From: a virus
IMG/VR virus record: IMGVR_UViG_3300025413_000150
Coordinates: 1 to 20,376 of that record
Direction: 5' to 3' (one strand)
DNA: 20,376 nt
Positions 198 to 20,053 of the stretch are shown here, in pieces. Below the pieces are notes generated by a model. The model had not been told where the DNA came from. It saw nothing but the letters and a program-made list of their open reading frames with translations, and ran no database searches. The stretch's first letter is position 1, and each line of letters opens with the position of its first letter. The position numbers and the translations under genes are program-made.

Positions 198-1038
198 ATT
201 TTTCCTCAAGTATTTTTTTCCAATTTGGAACCCTATTGTATTGGTGAACCATCACATATTTTTCACCAAAACTGTTATAAACAAATCCATCTTCAAATGT
301 TGGTTCTTTACACAATAGATTAGGTTTAAATTGATTCATTTTACTTGGATCAACCATCGTACCACATTGACAAGCCCAATTAGTATCACCACTATTGAAA
401 TTGGTAATTGACTTATACGGCTCAGTTGACAATAACACATTAACAGCAGCTTGGTCAGGTACAGGATTTCTGATGCCTTCAATCATTAATGCTAATGTCA
501 GAGAGTAATCAATGAATGTTTTAAATTCACCTGCCATTGATCCGGCGTTATAGATTTGTGTTTCGGCCATGTAATCTCGAATATCTGGTCCAAAACATTG
601 ACCAATATTATCGTAACCCCAAGGTTCGTCTTTGTATTTCAAACCTTCACCGCCATAATTAAGTTTTTTATCACCCATATTTTTGGTCAGCCATTCAGAA
701 GGATCAGACTGAAACACAATATCAACATCGGTAGAGATGACGTACCGAATGTCTTTTAGGTCTTTTAGGAATTTCCAATAGAAATAATGTCTGAGTGTTG
801 GTACTTGATAACCAAATCCATCAGCAAAATGAAATCCATTGTTTTCTTTGTTTCTTTGTTGACTCACTACAAAAATTTCAAAGCCGTGATCTTTTAGTTT
901 TTCGATTGTATCGTCCAAGACATTGAACACAATCATACCTTTGCGACCAGAATATCCCGTTCTTTCTAAAGAATGAACCCAATGTTTAATCTTTTCAAAA
1001 TCATATATCGATATAGCCGATATCACTAAATCATCCAT
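190..1038 (-). CDS. GT-A-type glycosyltransferase-like protein
   Basis: A 282-residue protein of hexosyltransferase type. A predicted beta strand ends in the DxD motif STDVDIVF (D104, D106), which in GT-A enzymes binds the metal and nucleotide-sugar. The upstream region (AISIYDFEKIKHWVHSLE) has the alternating pattern of a nucleotide-binding Rossmann-like half. The motif NAGSMAGE near the middle resembles the conserved acceptor-side segment of GT8-like enzymes. Its start overlaps the end of the SDR gene, and its stop overlaps the HtrL/YibB-like start, so the genes form one operon. It probably adds a sugar to a phage or host glycan. Donor and acceptor cannot be told from the sequence. Confidence 0.7.
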   Translation of the reverse strand: MDDLVISAISIYDFEKIKHWVHSLERTGYSGRKGMIVFNVLDDTIEKLKDHGFEIFVVSQQRNKENNGFHFADGFGYQVPTLRHYFYWKFLKDLKDIRYVISTDVDIVFQSDPSEWLTKNMGDKKLNYGGEGLKYKDEPWGYDNIGQCFGPDIRDYMAETQIYNAGSMAGEFKTFIDYSLTLALMIEGIRNPVPDQAAVNVLLSTEPYKSITNFNSGDTNWACQCGTMVDPSKMNQFKPNLLCKEPTFEDGFVYNSFGEKYVMVHQYNRVPNWKKILEEKYE

Positions 1039-1838
1039 AATTTTATTCCCATGTTATAAAAATCATTACTGTAATTTGAAATTTTAATCTTCATATTACA
1101 AGCATCTTCTAACTTTGTATTATCTAATATAAATTGTTCCTTGGCAAGCGAATCTACTTGAATGAAATTGCCTTGGCCATAACCTAGAATAAGACCTCTT
1201 GCTATCTTGGATATTTCCAATCCAAAATCAGAACTCAAGTTGTATATTCCTTTTGGTCTTATCTCACAGATTTTTTTCAACAATTCACAAACTCGTTCTA
1301 TACTTATAAAGTCTCGTTTGATACTTTTTTCCATATCATATTTGATAGTACCAGTAGCTTTTAGTTGGTTCATACAATAACCTACAAAAGAACTTCTACC
1401 TAATTCAAAACCATAAATGTTTGAACCCCTCAGTATCGTTAGATTTTCTACATTTTCGGTTAAGAATTTTTCTGTGAGAGATTTGTTTTCACTATATCGA
1501 TCAAAAGGATTTAATGGATGCCTTTCGCTATAACGTGCTATTATAGGTGAATTTCCATAAACTTTTCTGGTACTCATCATAATATAATGACAACCAGATT
1601 CTGCAGCTTTCACTCCAACAAGCCAATCTAAGTCATAGGCTTCATTATAGGTTTGAGTTTTATATTCATACGCAATAGCACAATTGATAACCACATCATA
1701 TCTTTTTAAATCAACATGATGTAAGTGACTATAAGGTACAATGTGAGCAAGAACATCATCATGCTCTAGAGAAATACTATTGTAGAAATTACGGCCAATA
1801 AAACTATTGTCACCAACTATTAAGACTCGGCTCGCCAT
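1026..1838 (-). CDS. Extended SDR: NAD-dependent epimerase/dehydratase
   Basis: A 270-residue nucleotide-sugar epimerase/dehydratase-type protein. The N-terminus RVLIVGDNSFIGRN is a Rossmann dinucleotide-binding motif with glycines at about residues 9 and 15. The catalytic Tyr-Lys pair is seen in YSENK (Y115, K119), and the serine region MMSTRKVYG precedes it at the usual distance. The protein is somewhat shorter than the ~310-340 residues usual for the family, so the C-terminal substrate domain is reduced. The ATG lies inside the 3' end of the GT2 gene (19-bp overlap). Between two glycosyltransferases, it most likely makes or modifies an activated sugar for them. The exact substrate is unknown. 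Confidence 0.8.
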   Translation of the reverse strand: MASRVLIVGDNSFIGRNFYNSISLEHDDVLAHIVPYSHLHHVDLKRYDVVINCAIAYEYKTQTYNEAYDLDWLVGVKAAESGCHYIMMSTRKVYGNSPIIARYSERHPLNPFDRYSENKSLTEKFLTENVENLTILRGSNIYGFELGRSSFVGYCMNQLKATGTIKYDMEKSIKRDFISIERVCELLKKICEIRPKGIYNLSSDFGLEISKIARGLILGYGQGNFIQVDSLAKEQFILDNTKLEDACNMKIKISNYSNDFYNMGIKLWMI

Positions 1839-5447: not shown

Positions 5448-6835
5448 ACTTTAAATCCTCCAAAATCTTTTCGTTCTCTTGTACCAAATGTATTAAGAGG
5501 TTTATCTTCACCTTTATGACCAGCATCAGCCAAGAAGTCATTTTCAACTTGTGCTATATCATATAGTTTCATCTTTGCTCTATCAATACCCAACGTGAAT
5601 CTTTTGAAATACGTTGGATCATTGTATCTATTCTTCAATTGTTTGACCATGATTTGACCAACTTCTTCCAATTCTTCGGAAGAAATCAAAGCAAACATCA
5701 AGTCAGCTGTCGCAGGCAAACCAAAAGACTCACTTGTATCTTCGAGTCCGGGGTCGGAAGAGGAATATCCTGACCTTGTTGTTTGAGTTGCAGAGACAAT
5801 GGGGACTCCGAATTCAACGGCCAGACCTCGCAATTCTTCTGCAATTGCTTTAACATAGGTATAGGAATTAACGTTGGCTCCTGCTTTGATTCTGGCTGAA
5901 CAACAAATATTAAGATAGTCGATAAAAATAATATCAGGAACAAAAGACTTTTTAAGATTAAGCTCATTTAGAAGTGTCCTAAAGTGTATAGATGATGCCG
6001 ATGCGGTAGGATACTCTTTGATGATTAACTTACCTGTGGTCTTTTCACGGAGTCTGGATATCTTTCTGTCAAACATATCTTTTGGCAATTCAACCAAAGA
6101 ATCAACAGTCACATCAAGGAGATTTGCATCTATCCTTTCAGCAATACGTTCTTCAGCCATTTCCATAGTGATGTACAATACATTTTTACCCTGAGACATA
6201 CAGCCAGCGGCAACATGACACATAAACAAAGACTTACCCACACCAGTCCCAGCCAATGCAATGTTAAGTGTCTTGGCAGGAAGACCACCCTTGGTGATTT
6301 TGTTGAAGAATTCGAGGTCAAATGGAATTCGTTCTTCTTTTCTGTGGTAGAATTCATATCGTTCATCAGAGTTTTCTAAGTAATCGTGGCCAACGGAGTT
6401 GTCAAAGCTTACCGCCAAGGCGTCTGATAGTATCTTGGGAATCGCACCTTTCTCTTGGGTTTTATCTTTCCCTTCGAGTATAGAAATAGACCCCAATACT
6501 GCATTGTAGATAGCCTTTTCTTGAACAAAGGACTCCGTTTTGTCAACAAGCCATTGAATCTTGGATTCTTCTCCGCTAGACGAAACAATCTCTTTAAGAT
6601 ACGATTCGGATTTTTCCACCTCATCATTTGTGAGATTTCGTTTCTCTTTGATGGCCAATTCAATTGCTTCAACCGTTGGTGAAGAATTGTAAGCATTTGT
6701 GAATGAAAGGATCTCATTGAATATCAGTCTTTCGGTTCTATCAGTAAAATATTCTGCTTTTAGAAATGGTAATACTTTGCGGATATATTCCTCATTATAA
6801 ACCAAATTCCTTAGTATCGTCTGTTCCAGTTTCAT
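5444..6835 (-). CDS. 41: Replicative DNA helicase, gp41/DnaB type
   Basis: About 463 residues. It resembles the T4 gp41 family of hexameric 5'-3' helicases that unwind the fork and partner the primase. Residues ~1-120 form the helical N-terminal domain (DnaB-N-like). The RecA-like motor follows, with Walker A ALAGTGVGKS (about residues 193-202), a conserved Glu region NVLYITMEMAEE, Walker B PDIIFIDYLNI (about 305) and the downstream SATQTTRSGYSS (DnaB H3-like). The ATG at 6835 is preferred over an in-frame TTG three bases upstream, with AGGA about 8 bases before it. It overlaps the 106-codon gene by about 40 bases. Length fits the family (T4 gp41 is 475 residues). Confidence 0.92.
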   Translation of the reverse strand: MKLEQTILRNLVYNEEYIRKVLPFLKAEYFTDRTERLIFNEILSFTNAYNSSPTVEAIELAIKEKRNLTNDEVEKSESYLKEIVSSSGEESKIQWLVDKTESFVQEKAIYNAVLGSISILEGKDKTQEKGAIPKILSDALAVSFDNSVGHDYLENSDERYEFYHRKEERIPFDLEFFNKITKGGLPAKTLNIALAGTGVGKSLFMCHVAAGCMSQGKNVLYITMEMAEERIAERIDANLLDVTVDSLVELPKDMFDRKISRLREKTTGKLIIKEYPTASASSIHFRTLLNELNLKKSFVPDIIFIDYLNICCSARIKAGANVNSYTYVKAIAEELRGLAVEFGVPIVSATQTTRSGYSSSDPGLEDTSESFGLPATADLMFALISSEELEEVGQIMVKQLKNRYNDPTYFKRFTLGIDRAKMKLYDIAQVENDFLADAGHKGEDKPLNTFGTRERKDFGGFKV

Positions 6836-12889: not shown

Positions 12890-13182
12890 TGAAAAAATCA
12901 CTACTAGCTTTATCACTTTTAACAATTTTAGGAACTGCTGATGCACAATGGCATCATCATGGTGGATATTGTTGTTATCGTGGAAACGGAATGGGTTGGG
13001 TTGCACCAGCTTTGATTGGTGGTGTTGTTGGTTATGAATTAGCTCGTCCACCAGTTTATGTGGAACAACCTTCAGTTATTGTTCAACAACCAGTAGTGCA
13101 AGCACCACCGTTTGGTTATCATTGGCAAGAAATGATTGACCCACAAACTGGAGTCAAGAGAGTTGTGGCTGTGCCTAATTAA
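12889..13182 (+). CDS. Small secreted Gly/Pro/Val-rich protein
   Basis: A 97-residue protein with a clear signal peptide (MKKSLLALSLLTILGTADA|Q). The mature part begins WHHHGGYCCYRG, has a hydrophobic glycine-containing stretch (APALIGGVVGYELA) like a glycine zipper, then a Pro/Val/Gln repeat region (PPVYVEQPSVIVQQPVVQAPP), and ends FGYHWQEMIDPQTGVKRVVAVPN. Such composition is common in small bacterial periplasmic or outer-membrane proteins, so the gene may have come from a host. AAGGAG lies six bases before the ATG, which overlaps the stop of the S11 peptidase gene. It probably works with that peptidase in the envelope. Its stop overlaps that of the convergent homospermidine synthase gene. 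Confidence 0.75.
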   Translation: MKKSLLALSLLTILGTADAQWHHHGGYCCYRGNGMGWVAPALIGGVVGYELARPPVYVEQPSVIVQQPVVQAPPFGYHWQEMIDPQTGVKRVVAVPN

Positions 13183-14615
13183 GTCCAGACTCTAAAGTTT
13201 TCGTATTTACAAGGATTACTTTCATCAAATTCTTTATAGAATAGACTGTTAGTGTCCTTGCTTGGTGTCCAGTTAGACATTACAGATACCAATGGTTCCC
13301 AATATTGGTCACCGATGGCCAAGATTTCTTCAAACGGCAATTCTTCTGGTTCTGTGTAACCATTTCTCGGATTTTTAATCATCCAAACGATGGCACCCAA
13401 CATAGAACCTGCAACTTGCATTGATGTTGCATTTTCACCTTCCACTAATTCTCTAGCCCCGTGAATATCTAATTGTGAACCGTGCCAGAAGCAGAAGCCG
13501 TCACCAATCAATAATACACCCAATTCATCCATGCCGTCAACGATTTCATCTTTGAGAATACGTTGTTCTTTTTGAATATCTAATTCGTTACCACGCATCT
13601 CATGTAGCGAAGCAATAGCCGAATCACATGGTTGATAAACGTAATAAACGGATGGTCTAAAGTCACCACGTTTTGTTGTGAAGTATTCTGATATTGTTAC
13701 TGACTCTGAATGTTGAATACAGTAACCATTGTATTGTCCACCATCTGGTACCCAAGACTTCATCAATACAGAAGCGCCAGGTTGCATTAAGAAAGCTGCA
13801 TTACCTTGTGACTTACCGCCTTCTGGATGTCTGTCTTCATGTGTGCCCCAGCCCATCTCGGCAGGCGCTCTACCTTCAGCCCAAAAACCTTCGCAAGACC
13901 ATGTGTTGGTAAATTCACCTTTTGTTTTTGGTTGATTAATAACTTGTTGGTCTCTTTCAGCAATATGAATCACTTTAACATCTAGTGATTTCATCAACTG
14001 AGCCCATTCTTCACGGTCTGTTGGCATCTCAACTTTTTTGCCACGTTTCTTGGCTAGATTAAGAAGTGCTCTTTTGGTCAAATGAGTAACATAACCTGGA
14101 TTTGCACCATGAGTCACACAGCATGTAGGACCATCAACATGTTGCATCATAGCTTCACGAACAACTTTATGTGTATGGTACAATGTTCGTTCAGACAACT
14201 TTGGAATTGTTTCGTCTGGATGATGTTCCCATCTTTCTAATGATGTATCAATTTCCATCACATCATTTTCCATACACCACTCTAGTAATGCTTGTGCATC
14301 AATATTAAGTGAGCAATTGATAATTAAATCACCTTCACCAACATAGGTTGATAATACTTTTTTGTAATTACTTGGAAGAATCTCTTTTCTGACATAGTGA
14401 CAGCCAGAACCACCGTGGCGGTGAATAAAAATGTGTCTATGATTATCACGTTCTAGTACCGTGATGTTTTTTGGATCAACAGCAATGTGTCTTAAAATAA
14501 CTGGTAAAATGGCTTGTCCAACAGAGCCATAACCGATAATTAGAATTTTACCATAAAAGTCAATGTGCTTTTGGTATTTTTCTTTTTCAAATTCTACAAA
14601 ACTTTTTACAGGCAT
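13179..14615 (-). CDS. hss: Homospermidine synthase
   Basis: A 478-residue enzyme, the usual length for bacterial homospermidine synthase (EC 2.5.1.44), which uses NAD+ to join two putrescines (or putrescine and spermidine) into sym-homospermidine. The N-terminus KILIIGYGSVGQAILP is a Rossmann motif (glycines at about 28, 30 and 33). Family-like blocks follow: DLIINCSLNIDAQALLEWC, EIDTSLERWEHH, THGANPGYVTHLTKRALL, GFWAEGRAPAEMGWGTHE and FCFWHGSQLD. It is intact. A T4 late promoter (TATAAATA, 14653-14646) lies 30 bases before the ATG, so it is likely expressed late, when DNA is packaged. Polyamines neutralise packaged DNA in T4. Convergent overlap with the preceding plus-strand gene. Confidence 0.92.
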   Translation of the reverse strand: MPVKSFVEFEKEKYQKHIDFYGKILIIGYGSVGQAILPVILRHIAVDPKNITVLERDNHRHIFIHRHGGSGCHYVRKEILPSNYKKVLSTYVGEGDLIINCSLNIDAQALLEWCMENDVMEIDTSLERWEHHPDETIPKLSERTLYHTHKVVREAMMQHVDGPTCCVTHGANPGYVTHLTKRALLNLAKKRGKKVEMPTDREEWAQLMKSLDVKVIHIAERDQQVINQPKTKGEFTNTWSCEGFWAEGRAPAEMGWGTHEDRHPEGGKSQGNAAFLMQPGASVLMKSWVPDGGQYNGYCIQHSESVTISEYFTTKRGDFRPSVYYVYQPCDSAIASLHEMRGNELDIQKEQRILKDEIVDGMDELGVLLIGDGFCFWHGSQLDIHGARELVEGENATSMQVAGSMLGAIVWMIKNPRNGYTEPEELPFEEILAIGDQYWEPLVSVMSNWTPSKDTNSLFYKEFDESNPCKYENFRVWT

Positions 14616-17748: not shown

Positions 17749-18363
17749 ATGAACTTATACGATGAACTAGGACTATCTCCAAGATGCACCTTTGATGAAA
17801 TCAAACAAAGATACAGAGCTTTGGCTCAACAACATCATCCTGATAAAGGTGGTGATGAGACCACTTTTAAAAAAATTAAACTTGCTTACGAAGTACTTAG
17901 TGATCCATCCAGAAGAGCCGACTATGATGCAACAGGCAAAATAGAAGAAGATATTCCGATTAGAACAGAAGCGTTACAAGAGTTAGCAGGTTTAACAACT
18001 CATTGCATTACAAAAATTAATCCAGACCATGATGATTTAATCTTTGTAATGAAAAGAGAAATGCAAGATAACGTTGGCCAAATTAAAGATAACATTATAA
18101 CATGTAATGGTTTTATAATCAAGCTCAATAAAATTTTAAATAAGGTTAACCGTAAAAAAGAAGGTGAAAACTTCATTAAAAGTATCATACAGGATCAAAT
18201 TAAATTCCGTGAAGGTGAATTAAAACAATTCAAACACAAAATAGAGGTTCTTGATTATATGAAAGAAATATTAGAAGACTATTATTATGGTTTAGATTTA
18301 TCCACCTTGCTTGAAGGTGTGACACCAACAGAATGGCATCCTGCTGAATCAGTTTCAGAATAA
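17749..18363 (+). CDS. DnaJ-like J-domain protein
   Basis: A 204-residue J-domain protein. Residues 1-65 are a full J domain: LYDELGLSPRCTFDEIKQRYR, the HPD motif (30-32) that stimulates DnaK, FKKIKLAYEVLSDPSRRADYD. No Gly/Phe region or zinc domain follows. Instead, residues ~75-195 form a mostly helical, charged region (e.g. REGELKQFKHKIEVLDYMKEIL) unlike host DnaJ. It is probably a class III J protein that directs host DnaK to a phage target. It is transcribed opposite to the tRNAs from a late promoter and ends immediately before the CCA end of tRNA-Trp, so its transcript would run antisense into the tRNA array. Confidence 0.92.
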   Translation: MNLYDELGLSPRCTFDEIKQRYRALAQQHHPDKGGDETTFKKIKLAYEVLSDPSRRADYDATGKIEEDIPIRTEALQELAGLTTHCITKINPDHDDLIFVMKREMQDNVGQIKDNIITCNGFIIKLNKILNKVNRKKEGENFIKSIIQDQIKFREGELKQFKHKIEVLDYMKEILEDYYYGLDLSTLLEGVTPTEWHPAESVSE

Positions 18364-19341: not shown

Positions 19342-19345
19342 AAAT

Positions 19346-19480
19346 TGGCGCTCACGAAGGAATCCCACCTTCTTTCACCGGAGACCCCCTGTGGCGGGGG
19401 TGTTTACCTCTCCAACTGCCATGAGTAGCGAACTCACCGTGGACCCACGGTTGCGAACCGTAGCGTGGATGTTTCTGAGC
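19346..19480 (-). ncRNA. Structured RNA with tRNA-like 3' end and encoded CCA
   Basis: About 135 bases between tRNA-Asp and tRNA-Lys. The 3' end looks like half a tRNA: T-arm-like GAAGG-TGGGATT-CCTTC, acceptor-like strand GTGAGC, G73 and encoded CCA, five bases from tRNA-Lys. GCTCA at the 5' end (19480-19476) pairs with TGAGC. In place of D and anticodon arms there are three hairpins: ACGGTT/AACCGT (19447-19461), TGAGT/ACTCA (19422-19436), and a two-part stem GGAGA/TCTCC enclosing CCCCC/GGGGG (19380-19413). No ORF or tag-like reading frame explains it. T4 carries two stable RNAs of unknown function inside its tRNA cluster, and this is positionally analogous. A tRNA (Ser, Cys or Gln missing here) with an intron is the main alternative. 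Confidence 0.6.
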
Positions 19481-19487
19481 ATAAAAC

Positions 19488-19562
19488 TGGCGGTCCCAAG
19501 GAGAATCGAACTCCTATCAACGGCGTGACAAGCCGCTATACTAACCATTATACTATGAGACC
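19488..19562 (-). tRNA. tRNA-Asp(GTC)
   Basis: Acceptor GGTCTCA/TGGGACC, anticodon arm GCGGC-TTGTCAC-GCCGT, T arm AGGAG-TTCGATT-CTCCT, G73 (Asp identity), CCA encoded. Its 5' end meets the terminal helix of the 221-nt RNA. Confidence 0.95.
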
Positions 19563-19786
19563 ATACTAAAATACATTAGGAACCATTGTACATCTATCTC
19601 TACACTATAACAACGTCTGTTATAGGCCTGTACGGTCATTACTTCCTAAATTATCCATCGGCCTACCTCGGACAAAAATTGCTTAATGTCACTAGCTTTC
19701 ATGTAATTGTTTTACTACGTCCTCGGCAGGACATCCAGCGCAACAATCACCTAATGGTTTAGGTAACCTAATATATTTTAGTATGG
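19561..19786. repeat. 20-bp inverted repeat enclosing the structured RNA
   Basis: Left arm 19561-19580 (CCATACTAAAATACATTAGG) and right arm 19767-19786 are reverse complements except for one base, which still pairs as G-T in the minus-strand RNA. Two bases at each outer end belong to the flanking tRNAs. Confidence 0.85.
19563..19783 (-). ncRNA. 221-nt structured RNA flanked exactly by tRNAs
   Basis: The space between tRNA-Glu and tRNA-Asp. Its ends are inverted repeats (19561-19580 against 19767-19786, 19 of 20 Watson-Crick plus one G-T), making a long closing helix whose outermost pairs reach into the CCA end of tRNA-Glu and the 5' end of tRNA-Asp. Inside are ACCTAA-ACCA-TTAGGT (19749-19764), a stem ATTGTT/AACAAT enclosing GTCCT-GCCG-AGGAC (19706-19747), and CTATAACA-GACGT-TGTTATAG (19605-19625) within GTACA/TGTAC (19588-19633). 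RNase P at tRNA-Asp and 3' trimming at tRNA-Glu would release it. No known RNA family fits. Short coding frames exist but lack a start site. Confidence 0.65.
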
Positions 19787-19859: not shown

Positions 19860-19892
19860 AAAACTACACTTAACAAAAATAAAGAACTCTTG

Positions 19893-19918
19893 AAAGTGGT
19901 ACACGATGGTACCACTTT
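19893..19918 (+). terminator. Strong hairpin, likely intrinsic terminator (plus-strand U-tract)
   Basis: A perfect 10-bp stem AAAGTGGTAC/GTACCACTTT with a 6-base loop, followed on the plus strand by six Ts ending at 19921. It therefore best terminates plus-strand transcription, such as read-through from the DnaJ-like gene antisense to the tRNAs. On the minus strand it sits between the 22-codon gene and tRNA-Glu, with a poor U-tract, and might only attenuate. Confidence 0.7.
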
Positions 19919-20025: not shown

Positions 20026-20053
20026 ATTGTATCAGAACTGGTCAATTTGTCAA
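20026..20053 (-). promoter_or_regulatory. Sigma-70-like early promoter, copy 1
   Basis: Minus-strand TTGACA (20053-20048), 16-base spacer ending TGA, TACAAT (20031-20026), then a leader ending TGTTCAGTTGATAAGGAG that carries the ribosome site of the 22-codon gene. A second copy of the whole cassette lies at 20291-20341. Confidence 0.85.

Follow-up and report, generated by a model that had tools for sequence, protein, structure and literature searches.

A conserved structured RNA family in phage tRNA arrays, probably matured in the manner of ribosomal RNA

The window, by which we mean the whole 20,376-nt stretch of viral DNA analyzed here, carries a tRNA array whose minus-strand order is tRNA-Glu (19859–19784), a 221-nt spacer and tRNA-Asp (19562–19488). 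The upstream neighbor, tRNA-Glu (UUC), is the first tRNA after the leader, tRNA-Asp (GUC) lies downstream, and the spacer proper (19563–19783, minus strand, read from 19783 down to 19563) is filled by a structured RNA that we assign to a new family, A. Its ends form a closing helix, P1, with the 5′ strand CCAUACUAAAAUAUAUUAGG at 19767–19786 and the 3′ strand CCUAAUGUAUUUUAGUAUGG at 19561–19580 (both minus strand); the first three bases of the former are the CCA end of tRNA-Glu and the last two of the latter are the GG that starts tRNA-Asp, so that P1 extends 3 nt into one tRNA and 2 nt into the other. This 20-nt inverted repeat is 95% complementary, with one G-U pair in RNA, and has a helix score of 17, as against a maximum of 13 in 1000 dinucleotide shuffles (0/1000 reached it). 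Folding of the minus-strand spacer RNA gave -69.6 kcal/mol (z = -5.9); the plus strand gave z = -4.05, the palindromic helix P1 being common to both strands. The initial annotation had placed a structured RNA of 221 nt, closed by a helix of about 20 bp, exactly between the two tRNAs, and the fold and shuffle statistics bear this out; the competing idea of a coding region falls away, as the spacer contains no open reading frame and has stops in every frame. Neither a tRNA covariance model nor ARAGORN found a match within 19563–19783, and cmscan of the window against Rfam 15, at both gathering and permissive thresholds, returned tRNAs only. The array also encloses a gene for a DnaJ-domain protein (E 6e-20; 17749–18363, plus strand, opposite to the tRNAs), and a saccharopine dehydrogenase-like protein is encoded at its edge (13179–14615, minus strand).

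The phage is T4-like; the DNA polymerase of the window is about 50% identical to the polymerases of T4-like cyanophages, and a polymerase search yielded 80 viral contigs from the same phage group. Searching with a 22-nt motif of the spacer recovered four close copies, 91–98% identical, which make up the small known diversity of the window subtype, and helix-pattern and P7-pattern searches added many more copies of the RNA; 30 distinct copies were extracted by sequence and 34 were aligned by covariance model. Family A thus comprises at least 34 distinct copies; the IMG/VR metagenomic phage contigs that carry them reach 177 kb in length. Five phage records longer than 160 kb have one family A locus apiece, and the family is absent from three of the eight phage records over 150 kb, all three of which have a second family, B; family A is therefore optional and not essential to the phage group.

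A MAFFT alignment of 25 sequences, from which the window subtype was left out, revealed one clear consensus structure: 96.4% of cells pair (34–41% when the partners are slid), two-sided changes occur in 36 of 77 pairs, and the covariation score is 0.316 versus 0.141. The covariance model built from this alignment (R1), to which the window subtype was unseen, scores 82–91 bits on that subtype and 87 bits on the window, with an E-value of 3.8e-27 that is rough owing to a shortened calibration, and the window aligns to it over its full length (model positions 1–215). On the antisense strand of the window R1 reaches 24 bits through the palindromic P1 only, so about 60 bits of the window score come from the interior. 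In the 34-sequence model alignment, two-sided changes were seen in 54 of 77 pairs, 96.1% of cells are paired versus 34–42% when slid, and the score is 0.432 versus 0.156 after shuffling; because this alignment was fitted to the model, the 25-sequence MAFFT alignment is the cleaner test. Within P1 itself, 10 of the 20 pairs have changed on both sides among the 34 sequences, indicating that the closing helix is selected as RNA. A lack of compensatory changes in homologs had been named at the outset as grounds for rejecting the RNA, and the alignments give strongly the opposite outcome. These results confirm that the spacer is a genuine, evolutionarily conserved folded RNA and one member of family A.

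Mapping the consensus onto the window (all positions on the minus strand) places two helices just inside the closing stem. The 5′ strand of P2, CCUAAA (19758–19763), pairs with UUUAGG (19645–19650) and is replaced by CCAAC/GUUG-type pairs in relatives; that of P3, CCAU (19754–19757), pairs with AUGG (19655–19658), for which relatives have CCAG/CUGG, with 100% of cells paired. Together, P2 and P3 have 97.6–100% of cells paired and two-sided changes in 7 of 10 pairs. They occupy the bases of a local hairpin at 19749–19764, whose cells pair at 77% in relatives outside the window subtype; judged on these alignments, P2 and P3 do better, and the hairpin may form as an alternative but is not favored. 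P4 is a long hairpin, GGUGAUUGUU/AACAAUUACA (19702–19751), with an apical helix GUCCUGCCGAGGAC at 19719–19732 that shows two-sided changes in all six of its pairs in relatives. Between P3 and P4 lies a peripheral domain of the window subtype (19659–19700; alignment A3), which in most other relatives is replaced by a short GCC...GGU hairpin. A GUAAUG core (19637–19642) is invariant in 15/15 sequences of alignment A1 and 25/25 of A2, and its GUAA is able to pair with UUAC just inside P1. P5 (ACC/GGU) and P6 (GUACA/UGUAC), which are completely paired in the window-type arrangement, span 19582–19636 and enclose P7; the corresponding family helix covaries in 8 of 10 pairs, the window subtype positioning P6 differently. 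P7 is the hairpin CUAUAACA-GACGU-UGUUAUAG (19605–19625), which contains the conserved AGACG motif and shows compensatory changes in contig L084 and across the family. Among the internal hairpins proposed at first, the 8-bp hairpin at 19605–19625 is P7 and covaries and that at 19706–19747 is the conserved P4, whereas the one at 19749–19764 is not supported, although the case against it is less firm than that against the proposed switch. Conserved motifs lie in or near loops (AGG, CAUGAAGC, GUAAUG, AGACG and GAGAAG), and within the interior, conservation is no lower at unpaired columns (82% identity, 26 of 61 invariant) than at paired ones (80%), pointing to a function that extends past the helix itself.

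Upstream of tRNA-Glu and tRNA-Gln, relatives often carry a sigma70 promoter together with GTTCTTTAAAAATTT, an rRNA-type boxA. In the 60 nt before each tRNA, a boxA was located for 54 of 90 tRNA-Glu genes and 37 of 66 tRNA-Gln genes, and the 25 other kinds of tRNA had none; these counts keep duplicates and are biased by loci partly chosen through family A or B patterns. The window itself has, on the minus strand upstream of tRNA-Glu, a boxA-like element GUUCUUUAUUUUU (GTTCTTTATTTTT; 19875–19887) that matches less well than its counterpart GUUCUUUAAAAAUUU in relatives, a hairpin in the boxB position upstream of it (19894–19917) that might just as well be a terminator serving the opposite strand, and a candidate sigma70 promoter, TTGACA-16-TACAAT (20026–20053). 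The 23-nt TGTTCTTTAAAAATTTGTAGAGT has one exact match among 84,980 species genomes, in Caldimonas tepidiphila (Burkholderiales), where it lies in the 16S-23S spacer between the tRNAs and the 23S rRNA. In E. coli rrn operons, a second boxB/boxA/boxC set is found upstream of 23S (PMC10250234). Such sequence matches suggest that the phage tRNA operons of relatives have an rRNA-type antitermination leader and that the host is Burkholderiales-like. At four loci (L151, L152, L154 and L170), family A directly follows the boxA leader with no tRNA between, and their closing helix persists at a length of about 20 bp, though its sequence differs; family A is therefore a gene of its own, with P1 no by-product of tRNA sequence.

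To place family A among its neighbors, we surveyed 199 distinct tRNA spacers, each 60 nt or longer. Apart from the window, which was added, their loci had been selected through the polymerase alone, so that only the window itself biases the set. Fifteen have a closing helix (score at least 13 of 17) versus 0.15 expected; 11 of these stand behind tRNA-Glu, in 14 the helix continues over CCA/TGG, and the other 184 spacers are without such a stalk. Beyond family A, the arrays contain family B (about 125 nt; 36 sequences aligned, with covarying inner helices), family C (about 150 nt) and short modules of 65–130 nt, all of which have the kind of closing helix seen in family A, around different interiors, and stand behind the same tRNAs. 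A hammerhead-like look of family B (CTGATG, GAAAC) was rejected, as the motif is not conserved among its members. Modules stand singly or in tandem, with A then B in L087 and A, B and a third module in L021. At the Asp-Lys site the window is without an insert, and L085 (5495–5747) and L084 (341–594) carry two different helix-closed inserts of about 107 nt; near-identical phages differ by the presence or absence of whole RNA modules at the same site. The initial annotation was right about a structured RNA but saw a single one, missing the several module families of the same architecture, the covariation of the closing helix and the rRNA-like leader in relatives.

Several further features of these arrays were recorded. 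Short modules with similar ends, CCATATAAAAACACATT / AGTGTGTTTCTATATGG, often sharing the same A-C mismatch (L106, L142, L089, L111, L132 and others), follow tRNA-Lys, Ala, Met, Gln, Leu, Thr and Pro. The Asp-Lys spacer of the window (19342–19487, minus strand; 146 nt) folds strongly (-50.5 kcal/mol), has a tRNA-3′-end-like end GAGCGCCA, is conserved in L084 and L085 and is much shorter in L087; it may be a tRNA that has degenerated or acquired an insertion, or a further RNA module. L106 has a permuted betaproteobacterial-type tmRNA (RF04321, RF01850) inside its phage tRNA array (731–1195, minus strand), and at about 6150–6700 of the oriented L092 contig, tRNA-like units alternate with helix-closed modules, one tRNA seemingly bearing an insertion of about 80 nt.

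We propose, with a probability of roughly 0.6 by our own estimate, that family A is a stable phage non-coding RNA of the tRNA operon that is made and excised in an rRNA-like manner and acts in trans. A sigma70 promoter would drive transcription through the rRNA-type boxA leader, family A presumably forming one unit with tRNA-Glu and the following tRNAs; the 20-bp leader-trailer helix P1, including the CCA end of the preceding tRNA, would join the RNA ends, as in pre-16S and pre-23S rRNA; and a double-strand nuclease, most likely the host RNase III, for which a 20-bp helix is suited, would cleave P1. Exonucleases would trim tRNA-Glu to its CCA and RNase P would free tRNA-Asp, the product being a stable RNA of about 190–220 nt whose conserved junctions (the loop motifs listed above) would serve a role in trans, most likely by protein binding. 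With the CCA of tRNA-Glu held inside P1, release by tRNA processing alone seems less likely than helix cleavage, and the rRNA-like layout, the 20-bp helix and the inaccessible CCA together favor excision by RNase III. Pre-16S rRNA requires a leader-trailer helix of more than 17 bp for active 30S, with the RNase III site within the helix, and boxA recruits the antitermination complex in rRNA operons (PMC10250234).

The same stem could be read as a cis-acting processing or insulating stalk, in which only the closing helix matters and the interior is filler; it would bring a double-strand nuclease cut beside the tRNA ends and separate tRNA-Glu from the rest. That the closing helix is the part common to families A, B and C and the short modules, abuts tRNA ends and pairs with CCA agrees with such a role, but we consider it rather unlikely, given that the interior contains helices that covary in their own right as well as unpaired motifs that never vary, that family A also sits directly after the leader where no tRNA precedes it, and that 184 of 199 spacers in the same arrays have no stalk of any kind.

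It is less likely again, in our judgment, that the modules are specifically decoys or antitoxins, that is, accessory anti-defense RNAs, each neutralizing a host toxin or a tRNA-attacking nuclease. This idea would explain the presence/absence pattern of modules that are optional, single-copy in each genome record and swapped between close relatives at fixed sites. Phage tRNAs have been linked to resistance against tRNA nucleases, a link that speaks for it. So do the existence of effectors that cut tRNA tails (PMC12851939) and the abiF-type sRNA carried by cyanophage S-CREM1 (PMC9964418). Against it, family A matches no Rfam family and hence no catalogued antitoxin RNA. A decoy or antitoxin role is a special case of the trans-acting RNA that we favor and is compatible with it.

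That the modules are mobile DNA elements, bounded by terminal inverted repeats and inserting at the 3′ ends of tRNAs, is very improbable: inverted-repeat ends, the similar ends of otherwise unrelated short modules and presence or absence between near-identical phages would all fit, but the five phage records over 160 kb that have family A hold one locus each, the site is nearly always the same (after tRNA-Glu or after the leader), the end repeats drift with compensatory changes and no protein is encoded. The modules may nonetheless have been exchanged by recombination at similar helix strands. Hardly any weight is left for the regulatory switch or attenuator of the tRNA transcript suggested in the initial annotation from competing TTAGGAA and TTCCTAA. 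This complementarity is present in the window and in the three relatives that align closest to it, but in the 30 other members the alternative pairs in only 40% of cells (84/209), which is the slid-control, chance level, and no terminator or start codon was observed that would depend on the pairing; not conserved outside the window subtype, the switch is largely refuted by the comparative data. The copies of CCTAA/TTAGG serve as strands of P1 and P2, the 3′ strand of P2 overlapping one side of the proposed switch.

If the trans-acting, rRNA-like reading of family A is extended to its neighbors, it is possible, though we hold it more doubtful than not, that unrelated phage non-coding RNAs (A, B, C and the short modules) share one maturation platform derived from rRNA operons, and that the array is an expression and excision cassette for swappable RNAs. 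Such a platform, were it real, would combine boxA antitermination with a leader-trailer helix gripping the CCA end of the preceding tRNA, its cargo would probably be anti-defense or ribosome-directed, and the tRNA array would be more than a supply of tRNAs. An rRNA-style leader would also explain how long untranslated phage tRNA arrays might escape Rho termination. T4 species 1 and 2, GOLLD and ROOL, all in phage tRNA arrays, have no known function. With family A the question becomes accessible to standard experiments: the RNA is compact, 34 copies are available, its secondary structure is well resolved, its limits are clear and there is a specific hypothesis of how it matures.

Searches for known counterparts covered RNA families, isolate phages and bacterial genomes. 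Family A has no match in Rfam, and covariance models of GOLLD (RF02032), at gathering or permissive thresholds, and of ROOL find nothing in the window, in line with the earlier impression that the RNA resembles neither by eye. Blastn of families A, B and C against 50,697 isolate phage records, up to E 0.1, gave no match to any of the three, and separate searches picked up matches at tRNA-Glu or tRNA-Asp; T4, Delftia phage PhiW-14, S-T4, S-CRM01 and S-CBWM1 contain nothing that the covariance models R1 and R2 recognize; and the P7 motif, though conserved in the family, is nowhere matched exactly in 84,980 bacterial species genomes. We found no description of this RNA class in the literature searched, which included few subscription journals and may have missed an earlier report. 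Judging by that literature, structured RNAs in phage tRNA arrays are a known kind; what is new is family A, together with the architecture of shared closing helices and an operon resembling those of rRNA.

Comparison with known systems sets these features apart. GOLLD and ROOL, two kinds of structured phage RNA, are found near tRNA islands and have no known function (PMC12286853). GOLLD resembles family A in lying near phage tRNAs, and the two occur together in contig L111, but its members are often longer than 800 nt and have other structures. In L111, a GOLLD RNA with an internal tRNA (311–775, minus strand) shares the phage contig with families A and B. The species 1 and 2 RNAs of T4 (rnaC, 139 nt; rnaD, 119 nt), which are stable and of unknown function, are likewise small RNAs adjoining tRNAs in a T4-type phage; unlike family A, they show no long perfect closing helix by folding, and an R1 search of the T4 genome that detected its positive record found no family A there. 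The E. coli RtT RNA and 3′ETS-leuZ lie beside tRNAs and are released from tRNA operon transcripts; they too are RNAs from tRNA operons, but they are host-encoded and have no known relation to family A, and RtT, an Rfam family, has no match in the window. In some E. coli rrn operons, tRNA-Glu is a spacer tRNA. The pre-rRNA of bacterial rrn operons has the same layout as family A, with a boxA (clear in relatives of the window but weaker in the window itself), a helix strand, a structured RNA and the second helix strand, and its structured RNA is co-transcribed with tRNAs (PMC10250234), as we propose for family A. From this precedent, family A differs in having no rRNA homology, in its size of about 220 nt, in being phage-borne and in a helix that enters the CCA of the neighboring tRNA.
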